A stretch of DNA of 64,000 nucleotides from the NCBI GenBank assembly GCA_022539475.1, contig VCMS01000192.1, positions 43,046 to 107,045 on the forward strand, read 5' to 3'. Positions within the stretch are counted from its first letter, which is position 1; each line of letters begins with the position of its first letter. The notes beneath the pieces were generated by a model. That model made no database searches. It had not been told where the DNA came from and saw only the letters and a list, made by a program, of their open reading frames with translations. The translations under genes and the position numbers were made by a program. Positions 3,387 to 61,921 of this stretch are shown here, piece after piece. This stretch comes from Gracilaria domingensis. Its lineage: Eukaryota > Rhodophyta > Florideophyceae > Gracilariales > Gracilariaceae.

Positions 3387-3420
3387 TCGTCTGTCTCTTG
3401 CAGATGCTAGGTTTTGGCGA

Positions 3421-3520
3421 GGGTCGTCCAGAAATTGGCAAGGGTCGTCCAGTAAATTTTTTGAAAAAATATCGAGATCAATTATTTCAAATTTTGGAGA
3501 TAATTGCTTGGGTCGTCCAG
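3421..3520. repeat. Three subterminal GGGTCGTCCAG motifs (copy A)
   Basis: The 11-mer occurs at 3421-3431, 3442-3452 and 3510-3520, just inside the left boundary of the homology block, and at the matching places in copy B. Short repeated motifs next to an element end are typical transposase-binding sites in CACTA-type elements; that role here is inferred. Confidence 0.6.
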
Positions 3521-3884
3521 AATCGCTGTGCAGTAAATACTGGTGGGTTTTCCACTCGTGCTAGTTCTTTAGTCGAGGGCTACCTGAACTGTATTTCGCG
3601 AAGTCTATGTTCAGTTTCCATTAAGGTGCACAATACACGATACCTTCTGCGGAATGATACCCTGCAACGCATGGAATACTAGTGCTAGTACAGATGATGC
3701 CCATTATGAAATCATACCGTTTTATTCGTATCTATTCTTCTATCGACCGCTTTTGCTAACCACTACTTCGCTATATTACATGTACCATATCCCCATGATG
3801 GAGCGGGTGTAGGCGCAATCTGCGGCAGATGCCGCAGACTGCACGTCCACCATCGGATGTATCGGTAGAACAAATACGCACTCC

Positions 3885-3917
3885 GAGAGGATGAGGCGCG
3901 AAGCGCCTCATCCTCTC
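3885..3917. repeat. Perfect 15-bp hairpin with GAA loop (copy A)
   Basis: Arms 3885-3899 and 3903-3917 are perfectly complementary, with loop GAA. In copy B (51,135-51,167) the arms are the same and the loop is TTC, the reverse complement. It is followed by a second hairpin at 3919-3971. Confidence 0.9.
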
Positions 3918-3918
3918 C

Positions 3919-3971
3919 GTTCCTCATGTAGGGAACCATGCCCAGATGCATGGTTCCCTACTTGAGGAACC
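3919..3971. repeat. 23-bp hairpin with one mismatch (copy A)
   Basis: The left arm begins GTTCCTCATGTAGGG and the right arm ends CCCTACTTGAGGAAC, with a 7-base spacer and a single mispair. Copy B has the same structure next to its first hairpin, with a different base at the mispaired position. Confidence 0.85.
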
Positions 3972-4011
3972 TGCACCTGCAACTCGTGAGCTACGTCTGC
4001 ATCAAAAGTCA

Positions 4012-4532
4012 TTTACGTGTATACGCAAGCAGAAAGTATCCATAAGTTAGTCAATGATCCGTTGGATACATTTGAAATGCGATGGAACGTACCATTGATA
4101 AAGCAAAACAGAAACGTTGCGCTAGAAAAGTCTAGGGACCTAGTAACTCGCAAACGGAAGAAGAAGGAGGAAAGGGTTCGGTTAGATTACCAGCCCACCA
4201 TCATCGTAAAGCGCGAAAGGTGTCGAAGCGAGAACTCACAAGCAAGGACACCAAGAATGCCCATGCAGCAAACATACCGCAAGATGCGATAAACGAGAGA
4301 GCAGCCTATGTCCCAACCAAGTACCAGAATCGCCTATCCCGAACAGCCAGAGATCGATCTTGAGAGACGAAATGAAATTGGTCGTTTACCTGTATACGCA
4401 AGCAGAAAGTATCCATAAGTTAGTCAATGCTCCGTTGGATACAGTTGAAATGCGATAGAACGTACCATTGATAAGAGCAAAACAGAAACGTTGCGCTAGA
4501 AAAGTCGAGGGACCTAGTAACTCGCAAAAATA
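4012..4532. repeat. ~145-bp direct repeat flanking a 230-bp segment, copy A only
   Basis: The stretch starting GTATACGCAAGCAGAAAG occurs at about 4017-4158 and again at about 4390-4532, with scattered differences. Copy B has it only once (from about 51,269). The 230 bp between the repeats (about 4159-4389) is absent from copy B. Either copy B lost one repeat and the middle by recombination, or copy A gained them. Confidence 0.8.
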
Positions 4533-4855: not shown

Positions 4856-5220
4856 AGCGGAGTAGAACGCGAGGATGGCACGGATCACGATGGGAACAAA
4901 AGGTCGGACGTCGGACGGGCGAAGGCGGCGGCGGAGGGAAGAGATTTATTTTTCTGTGCGGGATTGGACAAGTGTAAAGCGTACCACGTTGGAAAACCAC
5001 AGGTTTATAACCAGTGGTAGATAATACGAGAAGTACACCCTTGTGTTGAGGTCGACGTGTACCTACGTTCCTTTTTGAACGAAAGCACGTGATTTAAACT
5101 CAAAATATATTCTCTGTTCTGAGCAAGACGTCGATATTGACTGTCGCTCGACCTCCTTCTCCCTTCGGACGCCCTTCCCTTGCAGTCTTTGTCGTTGTTT
5201 CTCGTTCATTTCTTCTTCCC

Positions 5221-8200
5221 ATGGTCTACTACTGTACACATAAGAAGCGTGGGTGCCCCTTCGTTACTCGCCGAGGAGTCTTATCCCTTCAACAGCATGT
5301 CAACCATTGCCCGTTTCGTCTGAAAGCAGCGCTGGAAGACGACAATAGCCGGGCCATTCGGAGAAGCAAGCGTCTCAAGCTTTCCGCGCCCGCGCCCGCA
5401 TCTTCCGAAACGGTCACTGCCCCTTGTCGCCTTCCCGAGCCTCCAGTGTCCGAGGAAATCGTCGACCCCACTCCGTGCGCCCCTCCCATTCCGGACACTT
5501 CGCATTGTGTTTCTCCTTCCCCGGGTCCCGCGTCATTAGAGCGAGAACACGGAAGCAGTTCCCGCCCAGTGCCTTCTGAGGAGGCCCTTGGTGATTTGCA
5601 TATGGATTATCTCACGGTTTGTCTGGCTTCAGTAGCTTCCAACCTTGGTCATCGTGAGGCGGACGAGCTAATTGGGCTACTTCGGGACCCGCGATTCTCG
5701 CAAAAGCGATTCAACGAGACCATAACAAGTTCCAAGCGCTGTACAGAACCGAAGAACGCCATTTTCGAACGATACGCCTCAAAGGACGGTTTCAATCGCA
5801 GAACTGTCTCGCCAGAAGGATGTAAGTTCAGCGCCACCCTCTACACGAGAGACCCCGTTCAGACACTTGTGAAACAGCTCCAGTTGGCTAACAACGAAAA
5901 CACATTCTTCCACCCTATACCTCAGACCCACTCCACGAAAATATCTCACCCCATGTCCGGCTCTCTCGCAAGAGACGCCACCTCAAAACTTAAGGAAATG
6001 GTCATGGGCTCTTTGGATAGTAGAATAGTGTGGTACTCCCAAGAAATAAGTTACAGTGAATCTTTCGTAGGTCTTCTGCAGGTATACACCGATAAGTCTT
6101 CAACAACTCTAAAGCAAACATCGGTTACCGCCTATCCTCTTCACCTCATATTTCTCAACTTCTCCGACCAGCTTCGCCGTAAGTGTATCCGTGATGACCT
6201 CACAGTAGTGGCATACTTCCCTACCACACTGATCGAGGTTTCCGCATCTGAAGCAGACGCAATGCCATTTGTTTCTAGCAAGTCTCTACGCGAGTCCAGG
6301 ATGCAAATCCTTCAAGAATATCTTCGTCAAGTCCTGGAGCCCAATCTAAATCTCACGCAGAAAGGTTTTCAGTTCATCGGCGAAGACAAACTAAGTCGAG
6401 TGTGCCATCCTCTGCTTGCAAGTTATTGTGCGGATATTCCTGAGGCTAAGGACATTCTGTCCATTCTTCATGGGACCAAAACGGAAAGCCCGTGTCATAG
6501 ATGCAAAGCCCCTCGCTCATCTTTATGCAGTCCTATTCCCACCTCATTCAACGGACGTTCTCAAAAGCACACGAGAAGCATCCGAAAGACATACACAGCT
6601 ATCTTGCAACATGCACAAAAAGACGAGGCGGAAAGACGTCCACGTCGTGCGAGAGACAGGAGATCTCAAGCGGATACTCTGATGCGTTCAAATTCCATAT
6701 CTCTCATTCCTTCGTTCCTCGAAACTTCCGTAAGCCTTGGAATGATCCCGGGATTGTCTCCATACAGTCTGTTCTCATTCGAACCATTACACAACTTGCA
6801 TCTCGGCATCTCAAAGTTGATAAAAACGGCCACAATCGAGAGACTGCAGTCAGACACCCTGTGCACCACAATAGGAGCATCTGCATCGCGTTCATTTCAA
6901 ACGATACGCACCCAACTCCTCAACCATGCAAACGCAATTCTAGCTGCCATAGAACGCGATTCTCCTGCCAAAGGTTTACATATCGATTTCTCCATGCAGG
7001 AGAAAGGCAAATCTTTGAATGGTATCTTCACGAAAGACGGTCTCCGTGGAAAGCTGGAGGCCAAAAACTACAAAGCACTTGACATGGTCTTTCCCTTCAT
7101 AGGAGCATTCTTTGACATATGCTGTGGAGAACAGGACGTTGCCCCAATCACAACCGTTTTCTCTCAGTATTCGGACTTGCTCTCGACCTTATTGAGATAC
7201 AATCGTGACCCGTATTGGACTGAAAGCTCTCTCCTGTGTCTTAGTTCGGAGATTGAAGCCTTCAAGCGTTCCGCAACAAAGACTCTGGCGGATTTTCATC
7301 CCTCCAGACTGGGAACTCTGAAGTTTCATCTTCTCGATCATCTCGTGGACGATATTTGCCGTCTGGGAAGTATCAAGTACTACGACGCAGGCATATACGA
7401 ACATGTACACTTGCTATTTAAGAGACACTACAAAAAGACGTCCAGAAGAACAGCAACGGCTGTGGAGGAGACTATTCGCTCCATTGAGCACGGACATGTT
7501 AGAAAGCAATGGAATGGCAATACTCCTTACCAGCGTAATCCAGGTTTACCAGGAACTTCCACACAGCTTCCTCGGTTTGCAATGAGAGGGCGTTCTTTCA
7601 CTTTACGAGCTCTTCAACATTGTGTTTCAAGTATGTCCAGTTCAAAAACATGGACTGCTGTTAGAGAAATGTTCTCAAGTACGGACACAAGGTCGATTCT
7701 TGATCAAATTGGTGAACAGGCCCTTCCTCCTTTCCTCAGTCTCGTGAAAGAAACACTGGATGAGCACTCTATTACATACTTCCCAGAAAAGACAAGGATA
7801 ACTCTGGTGAATTCGGCCCTCGTGAAAGGCGGTTTCGTTCCGACTCTTGAACACTTCGATTCATCTTCTAAGGCACGTAAGCTGGGACGACCCAAATACC
7901 CCATCATCCAACGTGTCTTCGCTTCTCCAGCATTTGGTCCCAGTAGAAAGCCAAAGTTTTCCACTGCATTGGTAAGCGGAGAAGATTCAGAGACTTGGGT
8001 TGCCCAGGTAGTCGCTCTGATTCGAATATCTCTCCTTGATTCTGCACTTACCGCACCAGAGGTGGCATTCGTCCGGTATTTCGAAGTTTTACCCCCCGCA
8101 ACAAACATCGACCACATATTGAAATGCATATCTTTACGGTGGGCTACAAACGATGAAAAGAACCACACTCTTCCGTTCCCTCGTCATTCCAAAGCGGAGA

Positions 8201-8400
8201 CTATCGTAGAGTTAACTCCTTGGTACGGGATGGTTCCGGCTTTTGCACTACAGGGAACTGTCCATGTTGTTCGATCAAACTACCCTGCTCCACCTTTTTG
8301 TCCTCCACTTCAATGGTTTCAACACCGATTCTACATCAATCGATTCTATCATGATTCAGATGAAGGACCAACTGAGCACGTTGATCTTGTACAGCCTTAA
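5221..8400 (+). CDS. Plavaka/CACTA-like transposase (copy A)
   Basis: Predicted to bind the element ends and catalyse DNA cleavage and strand transfer in the nucleus. I take the ATG at 5221 (context CCCATGG), giving 1059 residues; it is the start shared with copy B, and the upstream extension in copy A has no ATG. Residues 5-30 form a Cys-Cys-His-Cys finger (C5, C12, H26, C30) of the sort that opens Plavaka transposases. Other family-like blocks are CHRCKAP at about 421, FEPLHNLHLG at about 519, LKFHLLDHL at about 698, and YYDAGIYEHVHLLFKRHYKK at about 720, followed by TSRRT. The last resembles the tail-side block of Plavaka proteins. I could not place the catalytic acidic residues with certainty. 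It converges with the coiled-coil gene, with 165 bp between the stops. It is about 98% identical to copy B and intact in both. Confidence 0.75.
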   Translation: MVYYCTHKKRGCPFVTRRGVLSLQQHVNHCPFRLKAALEDDNSRAIRRSKRLKLSAPAPASSETVTAPCRLPEPPVSEEIVDPTPCAPPIPDTSHCVSPSPGPASLEREHGSSSRPVPSEEALGDLHMDYLTVCLASVASNLGHREADELIGLLRDPRFSQKRFNETITSSKRCTEPKNAIFERYASKDGFNRRTVSPEGCKFSATLYTRDPVQTLVKQLQLANNENTFFHPIPQTHSTKISHPMSGSLARDATSKLKEMVMGSLDSRIVWYSQEISYSESFVGLLQVYTDKSSTTLKQTSVTAYPLHLIFLNFSDQLRRKCIRDDLTVVAYFPTTLIEVSASEADAMPFVSSKSLRESRMQILQEYLRQVLEPNLNLTQKGFQFIGEDKLSRVCHPLLASYCADIPEAKDILSILHGTKTESPCHRCKAPRSSLCSPIPTSFNGRSQKHTRSIRKTYTAILQHAQKDEAERRPRRARDRRSQADTLMRSNSISLIPSFLETSVSLGMIPGLSPYSLFSFEPLHNLHLGISKLIKTATIERLQSDTLCTTIGASASRSFQTIRTQLLNHANAILAAIERDSPAKGLHIDFSMQEKGKSLNGIFTKDGLRGKLEAKNYKALDMVFPFIGAFFDICCGEQDVAPITTVFSQYSDLLSTLLRYNRDPYWTESSLLCLSSEIEAFKRSATKTLADFHPSRLGTLKFHLLDHLVDDICRLGSIKYYDAGIYEHVHLLFKRHYKKTSRRTATAVEETIRSIEHGHVRKQWNGNTPYQRNPGLPGTSTQLPRFAMRGRSFTLRALQHCVSSMSSSKTWTAVREMFSSTDTRSILDQIGEQALPPFLSLVKETLDEHSITYFPEKTRITLVNSALVKGGFVPTLEHFDSSSKARKLGRPKYPIIQRVFASPAFGPSRKPKFSTALVSGEDSETWVAQVVALIRISLLDSALTAPEVAFVRYFEVLPPATNIDHILKCISLRWATNDEKNHTLPFPRHSKAETIVELTPWYGMVPAFALQGTVHVVRSNYPAPPFCPPLQWFQHRFYINRFYHDSDEGPTEHVDLVQP

Positions 8401-8565
8401 ACATTAAGGGCTCCATCCTCTACATGTTCACCTTGTGGTGCCTTTTCTTGTGATCCTGTGTTAATTCCGAAATCGTTCATGTCCATTTCCTTGAACTCCA
8501 TATCCCCTTCCTCGCATTCACCAACGAAGCAATCGCTAATAGACCCCAATCTTCGGCTCACACTG

Positions 8566-10791
8566 TCAAACAAATGGTTCTTTCACAGTGAGGTAAAGTC
8601 TTCCGTTCGACGGCATTCGATATCCAAATGTAGCCTCTCTCATGTCATTACCAAGAACCTTAGTCCAATCTTCCGTTGTCGTTTCAAAATTATGAAACTC
8701 GCTGGAATTGGTCCTCAAGACATGTTGCCTAACATCCCCCAGAACATTCTTTAAACACAGAGTTAGCAGTTGGGCAAACTTCTTTGTAAACAGTTTCTGT
8801 CTCTGGCCACCCCTTGACACATCCGTACTTAGAAGGCTCACAATCGTCAACACCCAAGCGTCCAAACGTGCGAGCAACAGTATTGTGCCATCTAAAAAGG
8901 TGCCCGTATCCTTGTCTTCTACATCATACCCAATAAACTCCTTCAGCACTTGTACCCCGACACGGTTTTGGAAGAACAAGTGTTGATCTTCCGTCGGCAT
9001 ATCCTCGACATTGTCCGCATTGGAGTACTTTAGACGAACAAATGGGGCTTTTCTCCACCATGAAGTGTTCGGTACACCATTTTCGTCAAGACGCAGTATG
9101 TTCTCCTGCGCTTCCTTCAACTGCATTGTGAGTTCGTCAGCATTCTCTTCTACCAGCTTTGTTCTTCTCCAAATCAGATCGTACCCCAGAAGCAGAAATA
9201 GTTTATCCCTCGTATTTCTCTTACGAACGCCCACGACGTCACTCATGGTCTGCCGCATTCTCTGCCTAAGGCACATATCTGCACAAAGTTCCAGTATACA
9301 CCTGTCGGTAAGAGATGCTTTTGTAATACCTTCCCAGCTCAACTCCTTCAACTCGCTTTCAACCATTTTCTTCAGCAAAGCATCTGGCCCCCCCTCTACC
9401 GACGGTGTGAACATGCCAAAGCTGCCCAAGAGCTCCACGGGGTTTTTAGGAACCATGTATGAACCACCTTCCTCCGGCTCAATAAGCCCTTCCCCACTCT
9501 CAGTTGCGTCTTCCACCTTCTCGGCACGGTTACCCCAATTTCGGGTGAGCGACTCACCTTCGAGCCATAGCTCACTTGTTTCTCTCCTTGCCCACGTCAG
9601 CATGTTGTGATACACTGCTCGAGCAACCCCTCGAAACTCGTCGCACACCTCAATTTTATGCTTATTTCGACCTGTCTGCCCAGGTTCACCAGCACGTGTA
9701 CTCCTATCTCCCTCCTGTTTCAGTGCCCCTCTTAGCCCTTCAATGACTAGATCCTTCTCTTCAAGCCTCTTTTTCAAAGCCGTACTCTGCTCTTGGGCGA
9801 CCTTCACTAGAATCCCCCGAACCATCAAGTCCTCTTGTAGCGTCTTAACCTTTTCTTTCAAGCAATTCCGTTCATTTAAAAGATCACGTCTGTTCATAGA
9901 GGTTGAATTCACACCGGTGTGGATATCTTCCGGTATTTCCCTAGCCTCTTCGGCGACAGGCCCCGGTAATGCCGCAGGATTCGGTGTTATTTCGTTATCG
10001 GAACTATCCTCATGTGCCATACCCTTAGACACGAGAGGCTGCAGGCGTTCTGTGTCCACCCTTGGCACGGCTCCGAGCTCCAACTCCCGTGTCTGTCCTC
10101 CTCCATGGCATGGTATGTCAGATGAATTGGGCCTCGTACGAGCTGTAACGGCCCCCGTTCTGGAAAGAGGGGAAGGTCGAGGAGTAACTTGTCTATCAGT
10201 GGTCTCTCGATTTCTTATTGTCTTTCTCCCTTGTCCGGACCCATTGCGAGGCATGATACGATTCATAGCGGCCCCAGTTCTAGAAGACAGGGAGGGACGT
10301 GACGATCTTAATATACTAGGGCTCTCACGACTTCTCGTCATTGCCCCTTGTTGTCCAGATCCACTGGGCGGCGTAACCCGCGCCCCAGTAGCTCCGGTCT
10401 TCGATATCGGCCGGAGACATGAAGGTTTTGGTGTCATACGAACCTCTTCGGTTCCAGTTGTCATGCCCTCCTGTCCTGACCCGCTGGGCCGAGTTACCTC
10501 ATCTTCTTGAGAAGCAGAGACAGATGCACGATTTGCATTATCGGCAGTTGACGGCACGACATCGTTCGCTGATCCACGAATTCTTGACGCAATCCCGGAA
10601 GACGCTTCGCTGCGAGATGGGCGAGAGAGTCCTGTAGAAGGACGCTCACTGACTCTCTCCTTCGTCGAGGACGACTTCCGTTTAGGAAGTGCGGTGGTTC
10701 TAGCCTGATTCGTATCATCCGATGCTCTTCTCTTCTTCTGTCCACTCTTGTTCCGCTGCGTACTATTTCGCTTTCTCGGCGTTATACCCAT
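8566..10791 (-). CDS. Uncharacterised coiled-coil transposon protein (copy A)
   Basis: Not recognised as any known family. I choose the ATG at 10,791 (MGITPRKRN), giving 741 residues. The longer open frame upstream runs through a poly-G/poly-C tract and looks noncoding. The first ~270 residues are basic and rich in S, T, R and P, and hold three diverged units centred on an SGSGQ-type motif (about residues 100, 143 and 185), which suggests a disordered nucleic-acid-binding region. A heptad-like coiled coil follows (about 298-360), then a ~380-residue region with no family I can name, well conserved in copy B. It lies between the convergent transposase gene and the methyltransferase-SET gene, in the same direction as the latter. 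A DNA-binding or assembly partner of the transposase, like the second protein of CACTA elements, is a reasonable but untested guess. Confidence 0.65.
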   Translation of the reverse strand: MGITPRKRNSTQRNKSGQKKRRASDDTNQARTTALPKRKSSSTKERVSERPSTGLSRPSRSEASSGIASRIRGSANDVVPSTADNANRASVSASQEDEVTRPSGSGQEGMTTGTEEVRMTPKPSCLRPISKTGATGARVTPPSGSGQQGAMTRSRESPSILRSSRPSLSSRTGAAMNRIMPRNGSGQGRKTIRNRETTDRQVTPRPSPLSRTGAVTARTRPNSSDIPCHGGGQTRELELGAVPRVDTERLQPLVSKGMAHEDSSDNEITPNPAALPGPVAEEAREIPEDIHTGVNSTSMNRRDLLNERNCLKEKVKTLQEDLMVRGILVKVAQEQSTALKKRLEEKDLVIEGLRGALKQEGDRSTRAGEPGQTGRNKHKIEVCDEFRGVARAVYHNMLTWARRETSELWLEGESLTRNWGNRAEKVEDATESGEGLIEPEEGGSYMVPKNPVELLGSFGMFTPSVEGGPDALLKKMVESELKELSWEGITKASLTDRCILELCADMCLRQRMRQTMSDVVGVRKRNTRDKLFLLLGYDLIWRRTKLVEENADELTMQLKEAQENILRLDENGVPNTSWWRKAPFVRLKYSNADNVEDMPTEDQHLFFQNRVGVQVLKEFIGYDVEDKDTGTFLDGTILLLARLDAWVLTIVSLLSTDVSRGGQRQKLFTKKFAQLLTLCLKNVLGDVRQHVLRTNSSEFHNFETTTEDWTKVLGNDMREATFGYRMPSNGRLYLTVKEPFV

Positions 10792-10828
10792 GTTGTGGAG
10801 ATAAACAGGGTAATGAAACGAAATTGTT

Positions 10829-10858
10829 GGGGAGGGGGGGAGGGGGTGGGGGGGGGGT
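10829..10858. repeat. Poly-G-rich tract upstream of the coiled-coil gene
   Basis: About 30 bases, almost all G on the plus strand, interrupted by A and T. It lies 40-70 bp upstream of the chosen start on the minus strand. The matching tract in copy B is shorter by a few G, as expected for a slippage-prone run. Confidence 0.8.
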
Positions 10859-11085
10859 GCATGGTTCAGATATTCCGGGAGACTCCGCAGTTCCTGCTTT
10901 TTAGGAATTTGAGGTGCCCAATGGGTCGCAAATATCGCCGTTACAGATGAAGAGCTCCAGTGTACATGTACAACAACGCGTATTGCAGGCAGCTGCAACA
11001 CTCACAAGCATATTTACTTTCTATTTGGTACTGAACTCATATATTGCTCCAATGTCAGAGCCCAGTCCCAGGCGTACTGCTCTCC

Positions 11086-14000
11086 TTAGTTGAAATACAA
11101 CTCTTCGCCCCTCTCAATATCTCTTACTGCTCTACAACGAAGTAGAGCATAGTTAGAAAGGTCTGACTTGAACTGTATCACGGACTTCGCTTCCACCACC
11201 TGCACATTGGCACTTCGAGTCCTGTTTGACCGGGGCTCCGATAAATCGGGATCCCCGGCATGATATCCGGCGTCGTTAATGTAGCCCCCGATACAAAAAG
11301 GCGCCGGGACAATGTAGACTTCGCTCTCCTTTCTATCCTGAGCCTGTCCTGGTCTGTTCCTCAGGTGCAGAAACTCCGTACCAGTCACAGTGACCATCAT
11401 AGAAAACAACTTGTACCGCACTGGAGTTGCTCCGAGACAGCCACTTCCATACGTTAAGTGTCTTTCCTTCCGGTTCGTCAGATCCGTGTATACCAAAGTT
11501 CCATAGAAATGACAGATAGTTTCCCCAGCCAATATCTTATGTTCCGTGAACACCCCCATACCAGCACGGGGATGTCGGATCTTAGAAGATGCTATATGTA
11601 AGCGATAGCGATTGGCTTCAACAGTCAACAGCATATGCATATCCATAAGATTCAGAGCTCCTCGGTACTTCCCCTCCCAAAGATCTACAGTACGCTGTCC
11701 ACACTTCTCGACAAAGTCCCAGTCCTTCCAGTATCTTCCTAGGAACTGAGTAATATGTCCAGGCATCACTTGGTACTGGGGGTAACCAAATGGAGCCTCC
11801 CATTCAAGCCGACCTCGGTCCCGATGTGGAACCCGTTCATAGGTCGTTGAAGCCGCATCCACCACCTCCTGTTCAACCAGGATGTCATTCTTCCCCCCGC
11901 GAATAACTTCGGCCATAAGAGTCGTTAGATGGTGCTTCGCATGGCTGAAGCATGGCCTATTCCTCTCGCACCCCAAGAACTTCCTATGCTTTGTCAGCGA
12001 TAGGCACGCCATACCCGTAGAAAAAGTTCCCGCGAACATGTCCATGACAAGATCACCCGGTCTTGTGAAGCGACATATCAACTCCTTCATCAACTCCCTC
12101 GACTTCTGCTCCGGTCTTATGTACTGCCCACCTGGTACTGAGCTACCTGGCTCATGTACCTTCCATGTCAACCACTCCCCCGCCCTCGGTTTGGGCACCC
12201 GGTCAATTACATTCCTGTTAGCCGGGAAAGTGGAAGGAATGAAATTGTTCTCCTCAAATGGAGTAAGACTGGCTTCCTCCGATGGTCGCAATCCACGCTT
12301 CACCCCATGAACGGCGTACTCCGTTACGGGCTGTATCCCAAACTTCCGTGGATTCCCTCCAACATTACTGCGATCCCGGATGAACACCAGTGGATTCGCA
12401 TCCACTTTAAACGAAGGCATGAGTTCTGGTTTACCTTCGCTTCCAGCTTCATCTTTCGTACTCGCCGTTTCCGAAAGTATCCTGTGCCACACATGAAACT
12501 GTGCCATGGCACAGAATATAATGAAGTGCCCACCTGACCGAAGCGCGGAACTTATTAAGTCAGTCGTACGGATCATGTCTTCCTCACTGAAGACATCGTG
12601 ACCACTATTCCGTTTGTTCCTCTTCCTTCGAGTGTTAAATGGAGGGTCTGTTAGGACAAGCTGTGCCTCACCCCATAAAATCTCACTCTGATTCACAAAC
12701 GTTTCGTGTGTGTGCCTCAGGTCCTTCATGTCACAGTTGTACGCTACAAAGTGTGACTTTCTCATCCCCTTCCACACCTTGTCCATATTCATTCGAAGGA
12801 GACTGGATATCCCCTTCATGGGCGGCTCAATACCAGTCTTTTCGATGTTGTAATCGGCAACCCGAGATTCATGCTCCGCAAGATTCACCGGCTTCTCGAA
12901 GTCGTCGCTATCGGAGCTCACGAGGTTCATATACTCTCGACGAGGTGGGGGTGGGGCAGACTTGGTCGAAGAAGGTTCGGCATTACCGGAAGCTTTAGGG
13001 GTTTTCGTCAGTTCAATATCAGGTTTCGCGTGCATGCCGACATGGAACCCTGCCGCATGACGCATATCCTGTATCGGTTTCCATAGCAACTCCGAAAACT
13101 TCTGAAATCGAGCAGGCAACTCACCGGAGTCAGAGCTAGATACGGTATCCATCCGTATCTCCGAAAACTCTATCCAGTTCCTCATCTGATTAACCCGTAA
13201 GCTATAGAGGCTATCGTGGGTGCATATGGTTTCGAGGTCTGTCAAAAACTCCTTAGCCAGTATTCGCAGGTTTGTATCGCATTCATCACTCAAGGTCTCC
13301 ACCGATCCACTAGTACTGCTCTGTGGCACATCCTTTGTGTTGAATCGAGTACTCTGGCTCGGCGGGGCATAACCAGACTCCCGTGTCTCTAGCGCCGTAT
13401 ACTTCAACGTCTGCATATTCATGTAAATGTATGGTTTCACCATGTGCTGAACGTTCGTGTATCCAAGATGTGCCGCAAAACAACTCCATGTCCATACGAC
13501 CTCACTGATAGCGAATCCCAGTCGATCACAGTTGTCTTTAGAGAACGACGTAAAAGTGGGTATGTACACAGATGGTGCATGGTTCACTTTTCGTTTCTTT
13601 TTCGGTTGTTTCTTCTTCATCATTCGGATGTTGTCGTTCTCTCCCATTATGTGGCCGAGGTATGATAAGTATATAACGACCTCAAATGGGTTCACAGCTG
13701 TTGGTGGGATGAACACTGTCGTCTTCAGAACCTGCTTTCTCCTGGTCATGAAATAACCAACCAGGCATCGCACCGGTAGGTATATACCCATATCCATAGA
13801 GAGAAGGAAAAAATCGCGCAGTCTCTGGTCCTCATCCCCGTCCTTCTTGTCAAGAAGCTTCGTTACAAGATATCGTTGTTCCACAGGTTTGTTATTCACA
13901 ACACTCTTTCGCAGCTGTTGCAGTGTCAAGTTCTGCAGGTTCTTGGAGTTAGTGGCCTCCTCAAACATCTTCCTTGCCTCCGGAATATCCTTATAGTTCT

Positions 14001-14178
14001 CGGCGCAGAACTCTATTAACCCTCTAAACCCCACGTCCCGTGGCCGATCAGGGCCTCCATCGCTGTTTGCCAAAGCATCGTGAAGAACCAAGAAAAGTCT
14101 GACATATGCATGGAACGCCGGAGGCGGAGCACTCATGTCGATAGGATGTATCTCCTCTCCAAGATCGGTGGAATCCAT
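11086..14178 (-). CDS. DNA amino-methyltransferase fused to a SET domain (copy A)
   Basis: One 1030-residue frame carries two methyltransferase folds. The DNA methyltransferase half shows LVLTDPPF (about 509-514; motif IV, the DPP[YFW] catalytic loop of N6-adenine/N4-cytosine enzymes) and, further on, VMDMFAGTFSTG (about 711-722; motif I, S-adenosylmethionine binding). The order IV then I is that of the beta class. The last ~165 residues look like a SET domain: HPRAGMGVF (about 866), GGYINDAGY (about 965), which replaces the usual NHS block, and the terminal DIERGEELYFN. The frame stops there, with no post-SET cysteines. The N-terminal ~480 residues are unassigned. It is likely nuclear and could methylate element DNA and a histone or other lysine. 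Whether the target base is adenine is inferred from DPPF. The start is about 30 bp downstream of a TTTAAA box. Copy B of this gene is a pseudogene. Confidence 0.75.
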   Translation of the reverse strand: MDSTDLGEEIHPIDMSAPPPAFHAYVRLFLVLHDALANSDGGPDRPRDVGFRGLIEFCAENYKDIPEARKMFEEATNSKNLQNLTLQQLRKSVVNNKPVEQRYLVTKLLDKKDGDEDQRLRDFFLLSMDMGIYLPVRCLVGYFMTRRKQVLKTTVFIPPTAVNPFEVVIYLSYLGHIMGENDNIRMMKKKQPKKKRKVNHAPSVYIPTFTSFSKDNCDRLGFAISEVVWTWSCFAAHLGYTNVQHMVKPYIYMNMQTLKYTALETRESGYAPPSQSTRFNTKDVPQSSTSGSVETLSDECDTNLRILAKEFLTDLETICTHDSLYSLRVNQMRNWIEFSEIRMDTVSSSDSGELPARFQKFSELLWKPIQDMRHAAGFHVGMHAKPDIELTKTPKASGNAEPSSTKSAPPPPRREYMNLVSSDSDDFEKPVNLAEHESRVADYNIEKTGIEPPMKGISSLLRMNMDKVWKGMRKSHFVAYNCDMKDLRHTHETFVNQSEILWGEAQLVLTDPPFNTRRKRNKRNSGHDVFSEEDMIRTTDLISSALRSGGHFIIFCAMAQFHVWHRILSETASTKDEAGSEGKPELMPSFKVDANPLVFIRDRSNVGGNPRKFGIQPVTEYAVHGVKRGLRPSEEASLTPFEENNFIPSTFPANRNVIDRVPKPRAGEWLTWKVHEPGSSVPGGQYIRPEQKSRELMKELICRFTRPGDLVMDMFAGTFSTGMACLSLTKHRKFLGCERNRPCFSHAKHHLTTLMAEVIRGGKNDILVEQEVVDAASTTYERVPHRDRGRLEWEAPFGYPQYQVMPGHITQFLGRYWKDWDFVEKCGQRTVDLWEGKYRGALNLMDMHMLLTVEANRYRLHIASSKIRHPRAGMGVFTEHKILAGETICHFYGTLVYTDLTNRKERHLTYGSGCLGATPVRYKLFSMMVTVTGTEFLHLRNRPGQAQDRKESEVYIVPAPFCIGGYINDAGYHAGDPDLSEPRSNRTRSANVQVVEAKSVIQFKSDLSNYALLRCRAVRDIERGEELYFN

Positions 14179-14207
14179 CGCTTCAGCGCAAACAACGGAG
14201 GCGAGCC

Positions 14208-14213
14208 TTTAAA
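14208..14213 (-). promoter_or_regulatory. TATA-like TTTAAA box of the methyltransferase-SET gene
   Basis: TTTAAA lies about 30 bp upstream of the ATG at 14,178 on the minus strand, at the inner end of the palindrome arm. The same box, in the inverted arm, precedes the ParB-like gene at 61,840-61,845. Its promoter role is inferred from position. Confidence 0.45.
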
Positions 14214-14564
14214 TGGCGACTTACGCTGGGCACCCCCGCTTTCGGCAGCTCCTCCCAGCGCACTGCCAGTCTCGTCCGTGTCCGTGTCCGCTCAGTGCGA
14301 TAGCGTCGCGTGTCGGAACGATAGCGTCGCGTGTCGGCCACGTCGCGATTCGGAGCTATTGCAACGGTCCCGTATTGTGCTAAAAGTCGCGGATCAAGTG
14401 GGTGTGAAGCGCTAGTTTTCTCTAGTTTGATATATGTGCACGGCGTGTGCAGCGAAATCACTGCCGGAAGTGCCGGGAGGAGTGTTTTGGGAGGTCTCCG
14501 GAAGGCGCCAGAATGTGGCCAGAACGTGCCCGCGGGCGGGAGGGGTCGGTCGTGTTAGGGTAGC

Positions 14565-14672
14565 TACCCTAACACGACCGGACCCCCCCGCCCGCGGGCA
14601 TAAAATCGCACATTTTTCAAAAAATCGTCCAAAACGTGCCCGCGGGCGGGGGGGTCCAGTCGTGTTAGGGTA
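14565..14672 (-). repeat. 108-bp palindrome-spacer unit, inverted relative to copy B
   Basis: Starts TACCCTAACACGACCG and ends with its complement, so it has inverted termini. The centre (TCAAAAAATCG on this strand) is asymmetric and shows the orientation, which is the reverse of the copy B unit (61,407-61,513). Its flanking dinucleotides (GC left, CC right) equal GG/GC when inverted, so they belong to the unit. Confidence 0.85.
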
Positions 14673-14674
14673 CC

Positions 14675-15040
14675 TACCCTAACACGACCGACCCCCCCCC
14701 CCCCCCCCGCCCGCGGGCACGTTTTGGACGATTTTTTGACACCCTCCGGAGACCTCCCAAAACACTCCTCCCGGCACTTCCTGTACCCACTGCGTCACCT
14801 CAGTGCACCATCCCAGAAATTAGGGAGTGTCTGGAGGGTGGAGAAGACGGGATGGTCACCTCAGTGCACCATCCCGGAAATTAGGGAGTGTCTGGAGGGT
14901 GAAGATGACGGGATGGTGCACTAAGGTGACGCAGTGGGTACAGGAAGTGCCGGGAGGAGTGTTTTAGGAGGTCTCCGGAGGGTGCCAGAATGTGCCCAGA
15001 ACGTGCCCGCGGGCGGGGGGGGGTCGGTCGTGTTAGGGTA
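14675..15040. mobile_element. ~366-bp foldback (MITE-like) element with 61-bp tandem repeat
   Basis: Long inverted arms (about 130 bp each, from TACCCTAACACG to the GTGCACCATCCC region) enclose two copies of a 61-bp unit (about 14,796-14,917). The outer ends match the transposon arm, including the CACTCCTCCCGGCACTTCC block. It has no coding capacity and is probably a non-autonomous derivative of the large transposon. Confidence 0.65.
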
Positions 15041-15528
15041 GGTACCCTAACACGACCGACCGCCCCCGCCCGCGGGCACGTTTTGGACGATTTCTTGAAA
15101 AATGTGCGATTGTATGCCCGCGGGCGCGGGGGTCCGGTCGTGGTAGGGTAGCTACCCTAACACGACCGACCATCCCCGCCCACGGGCACGTTCTGGCCAC
15201 ATTCCGGTGCCTTCCCGGGACCTCGCAAAACACGCCGCCGCGCAGTGATTTCGCTACACCCGGCCGCCGGTACGTTGGCGCCGCTGTCCACGTGTATTTG
15301 CGGGAGTAGGCTGTACATGGAAGTGAATGAGTGTACTCTTGACTACTATGCAAAGCATTTGAAGAGCATGATTTGAGAACGCGACCATTGCTCGCGTGAG
15401 TCATCATTGCGCGAACTCCACGACTCTAAAGCGTACAATCAGTGTGCGAGCGGCCACGGACAGGACACGGACGAGACTGGCAGTGCGGTGGCGTCGCTAC
15501 GGCACCCCTCCCTCAGGAGAATCAGTCG

Positions 15529-19815: not shown

Positions 19816-19846
19816 CCTAGTAGAATCATTTTGGCGTATAGTGAAT

Positions 19847-19981
19847 ACGGGGTGTGCACGGGTTTATTTAGAAAATTAAGTGTTCAAAATCAGGATTTGC
19901 ACGGGTAGTGCCCGGGGTAGACTGTGATTTTGAAGACCAAATTTTCTAAATAAACGCGTAAATACCCCGTGCATACCCCGT
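19847..19981. mobile_element. ~135-bp foldback MITE inside the dead Ty3 element
   Basis: Inverted ends ACGGGGTRTGCACGGG, plus an inner inverted pair TTTATTTAGAAAATT and TGATTTTGAA, form an almost complete hairpin. It sits between the zinc-binding region and the catalytic core of integrase and breaks the frame. No clear target duplication is seen. It is unrelated to the TTAGGGTA family. Confidence 0.7.
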
Positions 19982-21150: not shown

Positions 21151-21151
21151 T

Positions 21152-21763: not shown

Positions 21764-21793
21764 ACTGTTGGAGAAAATGATGATATCATCAAG

Positions 21794-22390: not shown

Positions 22391-22393
22391 AAT

Positions 22394-51687: not shown

Positions 51688-52089
51688 TACTTCGTAGCGA
51701 CTGCGAGGGCGGAAAAAAGTACGACGGAGCGGAGTAGAACGCGAGGATGGCACGGATCACGACGGTAACAGAAGGTCGGACGTCGGACGGGCGGCGGCGG
51801 CGGAGGGAAGAGATTTATTTTTCTGTGCGAGATTGGACAATTGTACAGCCTACAACGTTGCGAAACCACAGGTTTATAACCAGTGGTAGATAATACGAGA
51901 AGTACACCCTTGTGTTGAGGTCGACGTGTACCTACGTTCCTTTTTGAACGAAAGCACGTGATTTAAACTCAAAATATATTCTCCGTTCTCAGCATGACGT
52001 CGATCTTGACTGTCGCTCGACCTCCTTCTCCCTTCTTACAACCTTCCCTTGCAGTCTTTGTCGTCGTTTCTCGTTCATTTCTTCTTCCC

Positions 52090-55000
52090 ATGGTCTACTA
52101 CTGTACACATAAGAAGCGTGGGTGCCCCTTCGTTACTCGCCGAGGAGTCTTATCTCTTCAACAGCATGTCAACCATTGCCCGTTTCGTCTGAAAGCAGCG
52201 CTGGAAGACGAAAATAGCCGGCCCATTCGGAGAAGCAAGCGTCTCAAGCTTTCCGCGCCCGCGCCCGCATCTTCCGAAACGGTCACTGCCCCTTGTCGCC
52301 TTCCCGAGCCTCCAGTGTCCGAGGACATCGTCGACCCCACTCCGTGCGCCCCTCCCATTCCGGACACTTCGCATTGTGTTTCTCCTTCCCCGGGTCCCGC
52401 GTCATTAGAGCGAGAACACGGAAGCAGTTCCCGCCCAGTGCCTTCTGAGGAGACCCTCGGTGATTTGCATATGGATTATCTCACGGTTTGTCTGGCTTCA
52501 GTAGCTTCCAACCTTGGTCATCGTGAGTCTGACGAGCTAATTGGGCTACTTCGGGACCCGCGATTCTCGCAAAAGCGATTCAACGAGACCATAACAAGTT
52601 CCAAGCGCTGTACAGAACTGAAGAACGCCCTTTTCGAACGATACGCCTCAAAGGACGGTTTCAATCGAAGAACTGTCTCGCCAGAAGGATGTAAGTTCAG
52701 CGCCACCCTCTACACGAGAGACCCCGTTCAGACACTTGTGAAACAGCTCCAGTTGGCTAACAACGAAAACACATTCTTCCACCCTATACCTCAGACCCAC
52801 TCCACGAAAATATCTCACCCCATGTCCGGCTCTCTCGCAAGAGACGCCACCTCAAAACTTAAGGAAATGGTCATCGGCTCTTTGGATAGTAGAATAGTGT
52901 GGTACTCCCAAGAAATAAGTTACAGTGAATCTTTCGTAGGTCTTCTGCAGGTATACACCGATAAGTCTTCAACAACTCTAAAGCAAACATCGGTTACCGC
53001 CTATCCTCTTCACCTCATATTTCTCAACTTCTCCGACGAGCTTCGCCGTAAGTGTATCCGTGATGACCTCACAGTAGTGGCATACTTCCCTACCACACTG
53101 ATCGAGGTTTCCGCATCTGAAGCAGACGCAATGCCATTCGTTTCTAGCAAGTCTCTACGCGAGTCCAGGATGCAAATCCTTCAAGAATCTCTTCGTCAAG
53201 TCCTGGAGCCCATTCTAAATCTCACGCAGAAAGGTTTTCAGTTCATCGGCGAAGACAAAATAAGTCGAGTGTGCCATCCTCTGCTTGCAAGTTATTGTGC
53301 GGATATTCCTGAGGCTAAGGACATTCTGTCCATTCTTCATGGGACCAAAACGGAAAGCCCGTGTCATAGATGCAAAGCCCCTCGCTCATCTTTATGCAGT
53401 CCTATTCCCACCTCATTCAACGGACGTTCTCAAAAGCACACGAGAAGCATCCGAAAGACATACACAGCTATCTTGCAACATGCACAAAAAGACGAGGCGG
53501 AAAGACGTCCACGTCGTGCGAGGGAGAGGAGATCTCAAGCGGATACTCTGATGCGTTCAAATTCCATATCTCTCATTCCTTCGTTCCTCGAAACTTCCGT
53601 AAGCCTTGGAATGATCCCGGGATTGTCTCCATACAGTCTGTTCTCATTCGAACCATTACACAACTTGCATCTCGGCATCTCAAAGTTGATAAAAACGGCC
53701 ACAATCGAGAGACTGCAGTCAGACACCCTGTGCACCACAATAGGAACATCTGCATCGCGTTCATTTCGATCGATACGCACCCAACTCCTCAAGCATGCAA
53801 ACGCAATTCTAGCTGCCATAGAACGCGATTCTCCTGCCAAAGGTTTACATATCGATTTCTCCACGCAGGAGAAAGGCAAATCTTTGAATGGTATCTTCAC
53901 GAAAGACGGTCTCCGTGGAATGCTGGAGGCCAAAAACTACAAAGCCCTTGACATGGTCTTCCCCTTCATAGGAGCATTCTTTGACATATGTTGTGGAGAA
54001 CAGGACGTTGGCCCAATCACAACCGTTTTCTCTCAGTACTCGGACTTGCTTTCGACCTTATTCAGATACAATCGTGACCCGTACTGGACTGAAAGCTCTC
54101 TCCTGTGTCTTAGTTCGGAGATTGAAGCCTTCAAGCGTTCCGCAACAAGGACTCTGGCGGATTTTCATCCCTCCAGACTGGGAACTCTGAAGTTTCATCT
54201 TCTCGATCATCTCGTGGACGATATTCGCCGTCTGGGAAGTATAAAGTACTACGACGCAGGCATATACGAACATGCACATCTGCTATTTAAGAGACACTAC
54301 AAAAAGACGTCCAGAAGAACAGCAACGGCTGTGGAGGAGACTATTCGCTCCAGTGAGCACGGACATGTTAGAAAGCAATGGAATGGCAATACTCCTTACC
54401 AGCGTAATCCAGGTTTACCAGGAACTTCCACACAGCTTCCTCGGTTTGCAATGAGAGGGCGTTCTTTCACTTTACGAGCTCTTCAACATTGTGTTTCAAG
54501 TATGTCCAGTTCAAGAACATGGACTGCTGTTAGAGAGATGTTCTCAAGTACGGACACAAGGTCGATTCTTGATCAAATTGGTGAACAGGCCCTTCCTCCT
54601 TTCCTCAGTCTCGTGAAAGAAACACTGGATGAGCACTCTATTACATACTTTCCAGAAAAGACAAGGATAACTCTGGTGAATTCGGCCCTCGTGAAAGGCG
54701 GTTTCGTTCCGACTCTTGAACACTTCGATTCGTCTTCTAAGGCACTTAAGCTGGGACGACCCAAATACCCCATCATCCAACGTGTCTTCGCTTCTCCAGC
54801 ATTTCGTCCCAGTAGAAAGCCAAAGTTTTCCACTGTATTGGTAAGCGGAGAAGATTCAGAGACTTGGGTTGCCCAGGTAGTCGCTCTGATTCGAATATCT
54901 CTCCTTGATTCTGCACTTACCGCACCAGAGGTGGCATTCGTCCGGTATTTCGAGGTTTTACCCCCCGCAACAAACATCGACCACATATTGAAATGCATAT

Positions 55001-55269
55001 CTTTACGGTGGGCTACAAACGATGAAAAGAACCACACTCTTCCGTTCCTTTGTCATTCCAAAGCGGGGACTATCGTAGAGTTAACTCCTTGGTACGGGAT
55101 GGTTCCGGCTTCTGCACTACAGGGAACTGTCCATGTTGTTCGATCAAACTACCCTGCTCCACCTTTTTGTCCTCCACTTCAATGGTTTCAACACCGATTC
55201 TACATCAATCGATTCTATCATGATTCAGATGAAGGACCAACTGAGCACGTTGATCTTGTACAGCCTTAA
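52090..55269 (+). CDS. Plavaka/CACTA-like transposase (copy B)
   Basis: 1059 residues from the ATG shared with copy A; an upstream in-frame ATG at 51,994 is also present in this copy only. The N-terminal CCHC finger, CHRCKAP, FEPLHNLHLG, LKFHLLDHL and YYDAGIYEHAHLLFKRHYKK blocks are all kept. Differences from copy A are scattered substitutions with no frame damage, although the two neighbouring genes in this copy have decayed. That would be expected if the transposase is still under selection or if the decay is very recent. It converges on the coiled-coil pseudogene. Confidence 0.75.
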   Translation: MVYYCTHKKRGCPFVTRRGVLSLQQHVNHCPFRLKAALEDENSRPIRRSKRLKLSAPAPASSETVTAPCRLPEPPVSEDIVDPTPCAPPIPDTSHCVSPSPGPASLEREHGSSSRPVPSEETLGDLHMDYLTVCLASVASNLGHRESDELIGLLRDPRFSQKRFNETITSSKRCTELKNALFERYASKDGFNRRTVSPEGCKFSATLYTRDPVQTLVKQLQLANNENTFFHPIPQTHSTKISHPMSGSLARDATSKLKEMVIGSLDSRIVWYSQEISYSESFVGLLQVYTDKSSTTLKQTSVTAYPLHLIFLNFSDELRRKCIRDDLTVVAYFPTTLIEVSASEADAMPFVSSKSLRESRMQILQESLRQVLEPILNLTQKGFQFIGEDKISRVCHPLLASYCADIPEAKDILSILHGTKTESPCHRCKAPRSSLCSPIPTSFNGRSQKHTRSIRKTYTAILQHAQKDEAERRPRRARERRSQADTLMRSNSISLIPSFLETSVSLGMIPGLSPYSLFSFEPLHNLHLGISKLIKTATIERLQSDTLCTTIGTSASRSFRSIRTQLLKHANAILAAIERDSPAKGLHIDFSTQEKGKSLNGIFTKDGLRGMLEAKNYKALDMVFPFIGAFFDICCGEQDVGPITTVFSQYSDLLSTLFRYNRDPYWTESSLLCLSSEIEAFKRSATRTLADFHPSRLGTLKFHLLDHLVDDIRRLGSIKYYDAGIYEHAHLLFKRHYKKTSRRTATAVEETIRSSEHGHVRKQWNGNTPYQRNPGLPGTSTQLPRFAMRGRSFTLRALQHCVSSMSSSRTWTAVREMFSSTDTRSILDQIGEQALPPFLSLVKETLDEHSITYFPEKTRITLVNSALVKGGFVPTLEHFDSSSKALKLGRPKYPIIQRVFASPAFRPSRKPKFSTVLVSGEDSETWVAQVVALIRISLLDSALTAPEVAFVRYFEVLPPATNIDHILKCISLRWATNDEKNHTLPFLCHSKAGTIVELTPWYGMVPASALQGTVHVVRSNYPAPPFCPPLQWFQHRFYINRFYHDSDEGPTEHVDLVQP

Positions 55270-55421: not shown

Positions 55422-57661
55422 TCAGCTCACACTGTCAATAAAAAATTGTTCTTTCACAGTGAGGTAAAGTCTTCCGTTCGACGGCATTCGATATCCAAAT
55501 GTAGCCTCTCTCATGTCATTACCAAGAACCTTAGTCCAATCTTCCGTTGTCGTTCCAAAATTATGAAACTCGCTGGAATTGGTCTTCAAGACACGTTGCC
55601 TAACATCCCCCAGAAAATTCTTTAAACACAGAGGTAGCAGTTCGGCAAACTTCTTTGTAAACAGTTTCTGTCTCTGGCCACCCCTTGACACATCCGTACT
55701 TAGAAGGCTCACAACCGTCAACACCCAAGCGTCCAAACGTGCGAGCAACAGTATTGTGCCATCTAAAAAGGTGCCCGTATCCTTGTCTTCCACATCATAC
55801 CCAATAAAATCCTTCAGTACTTGTACCACGACACGGTTTCGGAAGAACAAGTCTTGATCTTCCGTCGGCATATCCTCGACATTGTCCGCATTGGAGTACT
55901 TTAGACGAACAAATGGGGCTTTTCTCCACCATGAAGTGTTCAGTACACCATTTTCGTCAAGACGCAGTATGTTCTCCTGCGCTTCCTTCAACTGCATTGT
56001 GAGTTCTTCAGCATTCTCTTCTACCAGCTTTGTTCTTCTCCAAATCAGATCGTACCCCAGGAGCAGAAATAGTTTATCCCTCGTATTTCTCTTCCGAACG
56101 CCCACGACGTCACTCATGGTCTGCCCCATTCTCTGCCTAAGGCACATATCTGCACAAAGTTCTAGTATACACCTGTCGGTAAGAGATGCTCTTCTAATAC
56201 CTTCGCAGCTCAACTCCTTCAACTCGCTTTCAACCATTTTCTTCAGCAAAGCATCTGGCCCCCCCTCTACCGACGGTGTGAACATGCCAAAACTGCCCAA
56301 GAGCTCCACGGGGTTTTTAGGAACCATGTATGAACCACCTTCCTCCGGCTCAATAAGCCCTTCCCCACTCTCAGTTGCGTCTTTCACCTTCTCGGCACGG
56401 TTACCCCAATTTCGGGTGAGCGACTCACCTTCGAGCCATAGCTCACTTGTTTCTCTCCTTGCCCACGTCAGCATGTTGTGATACACTGCTCGAGCAACCG
56501 CTCGAAACTCGTCGCACACCTCAATTTTATGCTTCTTTCGACCTGTCTGCCCAGGTTCACCAGCACGTGTACTCCTATCTCCCTCCTGTTTCAGTGCCCC
56601 TCTTAGCCCTTCAATGACTAGATCCTTCTCTTCAAGCCTCTTTTTCAAAGCCGTACTCTGCTCTTGGGCGACCTTCACTAGAATTCCCCGAACCATCAAG
56701 TCCTCTTGTAGGGTCTTAACCTTTTCTTTCAAGCAATTCAGTTCATTTAAAAGATCACGTCTGTTCATAGAGGTTGATTTCACACCAGTGTGGATATCTT
56801 CCGGTATTTCCCTAGCCTCTTCGGCGACAGGCCCGGGTAATGCCGCAGGATTCGGTGTTATTTCGTTATCGGAACTATCCTCATGTGCCATACCCTTAGA
56901 CATGAGAGGCTGCAGGCGTTCTGTGTCCACCCTTGGCACGGCTCCGAGCTCCAACTCCCGTGTCTGTCCACCTCCATGGCATGGTATATCAGATGAATTG
57001 GGCTCGTACGAGCTGCAACGGCCCCCGTTCTGGAAAGAGGGGAAGGTCGAGGAGTAACTCGTCTATCAGTTGTCTCTCGATTTCTTATTGTCTTTCTCCC
57101 TTGCCCGGACCCATTGCGAAGCATGATACGATTCATAGCGGCCCCAGTTCTAGAAGACAGGGATGGACGTGACGATCTTAATATACTAGGGCTCTCACGA
57201 CTTCTCGTCATTGTCCCTTGTTGTCCAGATCCACTGGGCGGCGTAACCCGCGCCCCAGTAGCTCCGGTCTTCGATATCGGCCGGGGACATGAAGGTTTTG
57301 GTGTCATACGAACCTCTTCAGTTCCAGTTGTCATGCACTCCTGTCCTGACCCGCTGGGCCGAGTTACCTCATCTTCTTGAGGAGCAGAGACAGATGCACG
57401 ATTTGCATTATCGGCAGTTGACGGCACGACATCGTTCGTTGATCCACGAATTCTTGACGCAATCCCGGAAGACGCTCCGCTGCGAGATGGGCGAGAGAGT
57501 ACTGTAGAAGGACGCCCACTGACTCTCTCCTTCGTCGAGGACGACTTCCGTTTAGGAAGTGCGGTGGTTCTAGCCTGATTCGTATCATCCGATGCTCTTC
57601 TCTTCTTCTGTCCACTCTTGTTCCGCTGCGTACTATTTCGCTTTCTCGGCGTTATACCCAT
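55422..57661 (-). pseudogene. Coiled-coil transposon protein, frameshifted (copy B)
   Basis: Same gene as 8566-10,791 with one base missing at about 57,002 (copy A has one C more in GGGCCTCG). The frame is split into an N-terminal part (57,661 to the shift; the low-complexity region) and a C-terminal part (56,954-55,422; coiled coil and conserved region). The C-terminus is also changed by a small indel near 55,440, replacing the last residues. Confidence 0.8.
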
Positions 57662-57953
57662 GTTGTGGAGATAAACAGGGTAATGAAACGAAATTGTTGG
57701 GGAGGGGGGAGGGGGTGGGGGGGGGTGCATGGTTCAGATATTCCGGGAGACTCCGCAGTTCCTGCTTTTTAGGAATTTGAGGTGCCCAATGGGTCGCAAA
57801 TATCGCCGTTACAGATGAAGAGCTCCAGTGTACATGTACAACAACGCGTATTGCAGGCAGCTGCAACACTCACAAGCATATTTACTTTCTATTTGGTACT
57901 GAACTCATATATTGCTCCAATGTCAGAGCCCAGTCCCAGGCGTACTGCTCTCC

Positions 57954-60900: not shown

Positions 60901-61010
60901 TCCCGTGGCCGATCAGGGCCTCCATCGCTGTTTGCCAAAGCATCGCGAAGAACCAAGAAAAGTCTGACATATGCATGGAACGCCGGAGGCGGAGCACTCA
61001 TGTCATAGGA
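57954..61010 (-). pseudogene. Methyltransferase-SET fusion gene, multiply disrupted (copy B)
   Basis: Matches 11,086-14,178. Compared with copy A there are single-base losses near 61,006, 60,623, 60,002 and 59,857, and a TGT-to-TGA nonsense change at 58,941-58,943, between the two methyltransferase motifs. The DPPF and MFAGTFSTG motifs and the SET blocks are still readable in the separate frames. No full-length product is possible. Confidence 0.85.
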
Positions 61011-61071
61011 TGTATCTCCTCTCCAACATCGGTGGAATCCATCGCTTCAGCGCAAACAACGGAGGCGAGCC

Positions 61072-61077
61072 TTTAAA
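61072..61077 (-). promoter_or_regulatory. TTTAAA box facing the methyltransferase-SET pseudogene
   Basis: Near the outer end of the left palindrome arm; same as 14,208-14,213 in copy A. Its mirror is at 61,840-61,845. Confidence 0.4.
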
Positions 61078-61406
61078 TGGCGACTTACGCTGGGCACCCC
61101 CGCTTTCGGCAGCTCCTCCCAGCGCACTGCCAGTCTCGTCCGTGTCCGTGTCCGCTCGGTGCGATAGCGTCGCGTGTCGGCCACGTCGCGATTCGGAGCT
61201 ATTGCAACGGTCCCGTATTGTGCTAAAAGTCGCGAATCAAGGGGTGTGAAGCGCTAGTTTTCTCTAGTTTGATAATGTGCACGGCGTGTGCAGCGAAATC
61301 ACTGCCGGAAGTGCCGGGAGGAGTGTTTTGGGAGGTCTCCGGAAGGCGCCGGAATGTGGCCAGAACGTGCCCGCGGGCGGGGGGGGGTCGGTCGTGTTAG
61401 GGTAGG

Positions 61407-61513
61407 TACCCTAACACGACCGACCCCCCCCGCCCGCGGGCACGTTTTGGGCGATTTTTTGAAAAATGTGCGATTTTATGCCCGCGGGCGGGGGGGTCGG
61501 TCGTGTTAGGGTA
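61407..61513 (+). repeat. ~107-bp palindrome-spacer unit (copy B)
   Basis: Bounded by TACCCTAACACG and CGTGTTAGGGTA, with GG on the left and GC on the right. Its asymmetric core contains TTTTTTGAAAAATGTG. Same unit as 15,043-15,150 and inverted relative to 14,565-14,672. Confidence 0.85.
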
Positions 61514-61839
61514 GCTACCCTAACACGACCGACCCCCCCCGCCCGCGGCACGTTCTGGCCACATTCCGGCGCCTTCCGGGACCTCCCAAAACACTCCTCC
61601 CGGCACTTCCGGCAGTGATTTCGCTGCACACGCCGTGCACATATATCAAACTAGAGAAAACTAGCGCTTCACACCCCTTGATCCGTGACGTTTAGCACAA
61701 TACGGACCGTTGCAATAGCTCCGAATCGCGACGTGGCCGACACGCGACGCTATCGCACCGAGCGGACACGGACACGGACGAGACTGGCAGTGCGCTGGGA
61801 GGAGCTGCCGAAAGCGGGGGTGCCCAGCGTAAGTCGCCA

Positions 61840-61845
61840 TTTAAA
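61840..61845 (+). promoter_or_regulatory. TTTAAA box facing the ParB-like gene
   Basis: 77 bp upstream of the ATG at 61,922, at the outer end of the right palindrome arm. After the arm ends (61,852), the sequence is unique. TCGTCCAG, the core of the subterminal motif, occurs at about 61,868. Confidence 0.45.
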
Positions 61846-61921
61846 GGCTCGCATCCGTTCTTGTATCGTCCAGAGCGAGCGTATTGTTGATATACACCTT
61901 TCACTGCAATAGCTGTTCAAC

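Follow-up and report, generated by a model that had tools for sequence, protein, structure and literature searches.

Cargo known from transposons includes mark erasers (TET/JBP), SET genes or DNA methylases. In Ectocarpus, the element Sola1-1_Ec32 encodes, on the strand opposite the transposase, a protein that combines a ParB-like part with an N4C/N6A methylase, and a likeness of this accessory protein to transposon proteins of green and red algae has been noted (PMC12477816). SET genes have been reported in HarbingerS and MuDR transposons of oomycetes, and TET/JBP genes in Plavaka, KDZ and other fungal transposons, the latter in agreement with what a preliminary description of the locus studied here had stated for Plavaka and KDZ (PMC12730594). 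The bdelloid rotifer protein N4CMT, an N4 methylase with a chromodomain, is stated to be without eukaryotic homologues, and the same report gives DPPY as the N6A motif, most N4C enzymes carrying a different one (PMC8885841).

The present analysis concerns a window of 64,000 nucleotides of Gracilaria domingensis (contig VCMS01000192.1), in which the product of one gene, ORF1, is predicted from sequence and models to be a bacterial-type beta-class DNA amino-methyltransferase fused to a SET fold. Both this locus and Sola1-1_Ec32 combine, in a large eukaryotic DNA transposon, a bacterial-type amino-methylase as accessory gene on one strand with a transposase on the other, and both have a ParB-like partner; they differ in that here the methylase is fused to SET, the weak ParB-like sequence has an ORF of its own and the transposase is of the Plavaka type. 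A SET histone methyltransferase gene carried by a transposon is shared with the HarbingerS and MuDR elements, whereas these belong to other transposase superfamilies, and the excerpted text on them mentions no fusion to a DNA methylase (PMC12730594). The fungal TET/JBP elements have in common with the locus a Plavaka transposase and an accessory enzyme whose target is DNA methylation; however, that enzyme is a mark-removing dioxygenase and their termini are documented (PMC12730594), whereas here a methyl writer is predicted and neither termini nor target-site duplications are established. N4CMT (PDB 8s9m) is a host gene with a chromodomain reader, in contrast to the SET half and the transposon setting of the fusion, and CcrM and other beta-class bacterial methylases (PDB 6pbd, 5hfj) are without SET or a comparable N-terminal region. 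Transposon-borne amino-methylases (ParB-methylases) and SET genes are known separately; of their fusion, of which the preliminary description knew no example, no account was found in the open-licence literature searched, although it may already be described elsewhere, and the excerpted Repbase paper PMC4455052 contains nothing on it. Our confidence is high that the fusion exists, is conserved and belongs to a Plavaka unit.

In the first of two copies (copy A), ORF1 is a single uninterrupted ATG frame of 1030 aa on the minus strand (11086..14178), with an N-terminal helical region, an amino-methyltransferase domain (11950..12663, minus strand; residues about 506-743) and a SET domain (11089..11562, minus strand). 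Pfam profiles place N6_N4_Mtase (PF01555) at residues 506-742 with E 1.7e-14 and 54.8 bits, against a curated cut-off of 26.7, and SET (PF00856) at residues 873-1030 with E 1.9e-5, also above its curated cut-off; no match to ParB was obtained in ORF1 at E<=1 in Pfam or PHROGs. Beta-class enzymes have their catalytic motif ahead of the AdoMet-binding motif. This is the order found in ORF1, where a catalytic DPP[YF] motif, DPPF (511-514), precedes an AdoMet-binding F-x-G motif (713-721) overlapping MFAGTFSTG (714-722), all in one frame, just as the preliminary description had read it. The predicted model of the methylase half has a CcrM-type methylase fold, and that of the SET half matches SET/PR-domain enzymes, so that profile searches and structure prediction bear out the proposed identity of both halves. 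The last 251 residues are modelled with a pLDDT of 90.8 and have PDB matches to the SET fold, by which a C-terminal part without such a fold is ruled out.

The Plavaka-like setting that had been proposed from the letters is borne out: a transposase gene on the plus strand faces ORF2 and ORF1 on the opposite strand. The window contains two copies of this transposase-ORF2-fusion unit, one at 4381-14781 and the other, 47 kb away and in the same orientation, at 51258-61610; over 10.4 kb their identity is 97%. The transposase domain (PF18759) is recognised in both copies, in copy A (5137..8400, plus strand; 1087 aa) with E 7.6e-17 and in copy B (51994..55269, plus strand; 1091 aa) with E 1.1e-18, the two proteins having 96.8% amino acid identity. 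ORF2 has no known domain and no homologues at E<=1e-3 among 7994 candidates scored, and it is conserved in the sense of being present in both copies: in copy A it occupies 8566..11001 (minus strand), a GTG frame at 11001 with a likely ATG start near 10791, and in copy B 55422..57869 (minus strand), where, compared with copy A, a single base is missing past the likely start. Of 10,339 aligned columns, 263 differ between the copies, by a transition in 143 cases and a transversion in 120; 34 of the differences fall at CpG/TpG-type sites. RIP or CpG decay between them was discarded, since this spectrum has no clear mutation signature. Taken together, the fusion appears to be accessory cargo of a multi-gene Plavaka-type DNA transposon, encoded opposite the transposase, whose mobility is suggested by the transposase and the two copies rather than by termini.

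The ends of the element were approached through the limits of similarity between the copies. In the left flank of copy A (3387..4380), the stretch 3387-4154 matches 50637-51404 of copy B; the similarity starts abruptly at 3387, and the flanks beyond are unrelated. Plavaka termini are reported as TGT..ACA or CATCA..TGATG, with target-site duplications of 2-3 bp (PMC12730594). In a search that shorter termini would escape, exact inverted 11-mers were absent between 2800-4000 and 15200-18500 for copy A and between 50000-51300 and 61600-64000 for copy B, whose right end may lie beyond the window. With terminal repeats not established and both copies in one window in the same orientation, the fusion might not be cargo at all but part of a host gene block beside a Plavaka transposase, duplicated as a genomic segment. 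The abrupt left boundary with its unrelated flanks argues against this, as does the tight convergent packing with the transposase, only 165 bp separating the two frame ends. A relative of the fusion in Chondrus crispus, where EnSpm families of 16-20 kb with 4-5 ORFs have been described (PMC6431247), speaks in the same direction if, as we suppose, relative and elements are linked, and a host block is regarded as very improbable. Three GGGTCGTCCAG repeats lie at the left ends, at 3414-3523 in copy A (with GGGTCGTCC repeats at 3421-3522) and at 50664-50773 in copy B, and are possibly candidate subterminal transposase sites. Palindromes upstream of the transposase genes (4791-4856 and 51597-51683) differ between the copies, and diverged inverted repeats, 66% identical, flank copy A (1-820 and 15532-16354).

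Upstream of ORF1 in copy A there is an inverted-repeat region (14191..15262) with four 30-bp palindromes, GTCGTGTTAGGGTANNTACCCTAACACGAC, at 14549, 14659, 15027 and 15137, the last with one mismatch; copy B has two of them, and shuffled sequences gave a mean of 0.00. The copy B repeat (61055..61862) consists of two 404-bp halves with 384 of 399 aligned bases identical and separates ORF1 from ORF3; it begins 12 bp upstream of the ORF1 start codon and ends 59 bp short of ORF3, so that both genes have the same upstream sequence. The similarity of copy A to copy B fades past 15262, apart from a 35-bp remnant at 15457-15491. The core of the repeat is doubled in copy A (14466-14781 and 14943-15262) and single in copy B (61307-61632), and between the two cores lies an insert that has two tandem 61-bp units and self-complementary ends, perhaps a small non-autonomous insertion.

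ORF3 (61922..63586, plus strand; 554 aa) is a likely but unproven member of the element. All four PHROGs matches of its second half at E<=1 are to ParB-like partition proteins, with E values from 4.1e-4 to 0.33. Against Pfam it gave sub-cut-off matches only (TFIIA 0.12, DUF1335 0.032-0.19, GmrSD_N 0.079-0.16), and there was no match in NCBIfam, no homologue in a large protein search and no phage match of the ParB-like sequence by tblastn at E 1. A homology of ORF2 to ORF3 was likewise rejected, the best E being 0.56. The ParB-like signal is thus confined to a separate ORF and is not joined to the methylase in one protein, as it is in ParB-methylase accessory proteins. The following frame, ORF4, starts at 63583 (63583..64000, plus strand), is cut by the window end and has no Pfam match.

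The fusion is found well beyond this window. Among 5855 candidates, 34 relatives of ORF1 were retained at E<=1e-3, with E values down to 2.1e-159, which rules out a chance open frame; one of them is annotated in Chondrus crispus as an 'adenine specific DNA methyltransferase'. A fresh domain scan of the 35 members, ORF1 included, at E<=0.01 recovered N6_N4_Mtase in every member and SET in 31, so that other proteins with both domains do exist, whereas the precomputed database domains gave SET in only 22 of the 34 relatives. DPP is present in 34 members and YPP in one; the next position is F in 17 members, Y in another 17 and W in one; DPP[FY] and D-x-F-x-G-T-F-S-T are near-invariant across the family. 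Pairwise divergence of the methylase half correlates with that of the SET half (r 0.67), and the N-terminal region correlates with the methylase (r 0.83) and with SET (r 0.72), with none of 999 permutations as high in any of the three comparisons. Because the divergences of its parts correlate, the fusion protein evolves as one unit, and this joint divergence together with the domain scan rules out two genes joined in one copy only.

The scans made give no support to an origin of the fusion as a whole in bacteria or phages, although a prokaryotic fusion may still exist. In viral sequences 43 stretches fitted the patterns and none was confirmed as a relative, and 33 pattern matches in bacterial and archaeal genomes reduced to six loci with no prokaryotic fusion seen. 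The tblastn segments at these prokaryotic loci cover the methylase region only (query residues 651-788).

The SET half reaches its tyrosine in most relatives and stops short of it in the window. The SET-like blocks that the preliminary description had read at the end of the frame are indeed present; ORF1 of both copies, however, terminates directly after GEELYFN. Its stop codon (11086..11088, minus strand, in copy A) takes the alignment position of the SET Y-motif tyrosine, at which 30 of the 32 relatives with a residue there have Y. In a structural alignment of the model, the final ORF1 residue pairs with residue 334 of SET7/9 and residue 356 of PRDM9. The next SET7/9 residue, Y335, is a catalytic-site tyrosine, and the PDB titles among the structural matches include SET7/9 Y335 mutants. 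Neither copy therefore has a tyrosine at the C-terminal catalytic position of an active SET lysine methyltransferase. In the N-H region, where N-H-S-C is the expected motif of such enzymes, the family has N in 33 of 35 members, and D replaces H in 32 of 35. The two exceptions at the tyrosine, relatives P0022 and P0027, have another residue instead, and P0022 is also without the N-D motif. When the frame of either copy is read on past the stop, the residues resemble those of the relatives, and for this reason the stop looks like an ancestral loss common to both copies. An intron that would skip it was considered, and a 51-nt GT..AG stretch is readable by eye, but its removal would cost the conserved GEEL motif too. 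Lysine writing is made doubtful by the stop in both copies, and as far as the sequence indicates it is unlikely for the copies in this window, contrary to the lysine mark that had been proposed for them; the SET half has here probably ceased to be a lysine methylase, and it may persist as an AdoMet- or histone-binding module.

Such losses raise the possibility that in this lineage the fusion is a passenger undergoing decay, formerly active and now functionless in both copies. The terminal stop common to both would fit, as would the state of ORF1 in copy B (57954..61042, minus strand), where four 1-base deletions and an internal stop come on top of the C-terminal stop of copy A; judged by its frameshifts, this gene is a pseudogene. 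Yet copy A retains its 1030-aa frame with the methylase motifs, and of three genes compared between the copies, ORF1 gives the lowest dN/dS (0.39, against 0.56 for the transposase and 0.70 for ORF2), values that, coming from two copies with 52 to 58 changes each, do not prove current selection. For ORF2 the estimate refers to 740 codons shared from the methionine of MGITPRK, the copy A stretch starting 25 codons earlier. A passenger without function is distinctly improbable.

We favour a function in which the N-terminal region of the fusion protein would direct it to the DNA of the element itself, perhaps with assistance of the ParB-like ORF3 in targeting the palindromes of the shared upstream repeat. 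The methylase half would then methylate amino groups of the element DNA (6mA or 4mC), adenine N6 being likelier than cytosine N4 because the motif is DPPF, and relatives with a complete SET would also methylate nearby histones. These marks would keep the element expressed despite host silencing. We infer this anti-silencing direction, and the marks could equally serve transposase binding or self-repression. Self-marking against host silencing as the function of the fusion is accordingly a tentative proposal, held slightly below even confidence, and for anatomy and self-marking mechanism together our confidence is evenly divided. A broader version, in which the window copies and the Chondrus crispus relative belong to one family acting as a mobile dual writer of DNA amino-methyl and histone lysine marks, with a ParB-like partner targeting palindromes and permissive chromatin as the result, appears rather unlikely.

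The methyl mark might instead serve transposition, labelling ends or new copies for the transposase or for host repair, with SET only tethering the protein to chromatin. Of the two halves, the methylase seems to be under the stricter conservation, five residues of its AdoMet-binding motif (D713, G717, T718, F719 and T721) being invariant in 35 of 35 members, and the SET tyrosine is absent in the window copies and substituted in P0022 and P0027, both of which would suit this reading; but SET in 31 of 35 members and the tyrosine in 30 of 32 are more than a tether requires, and a transposition mark is considered unlikely.

With a single amino-methylase and SET protein, conserved in 34 relatives of which one is from a red alga, a mobile element would join DNA marking directly to histones, and the family gives expressible proteins for asking whether transposons write their own chromatin. 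In Dikarya, 6mA has been called unresolved in a report whose main text is without the terms N6_N4 and Plavaka (PMC13297926). Only if the element lineage occurs there would it be a candidate 6mA source outside the MT-A70 enzymes, which are the topic of PMC12695648.

The window also contains elements and genes of other kinds. A gypsy-type LTR retrotransposon at 36413-46453 is bounded by 1915-bp direct repeats with 99.9% identity, by which it would be a very recent insertion, and its 2143-aa frame (38060-44491) encodes RT, RNase H and integrase zinc-binding domains. Broken gypsy-type remnants lie on the minus strand at 18891-25289 (RT, RNase H and integrase pieces, with a gag match below cut-off). 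Likely host genes, for a cyclin, an F-box protein and a prenylcysteine lyase-like oxidoreductase, occupy 29378-35457.
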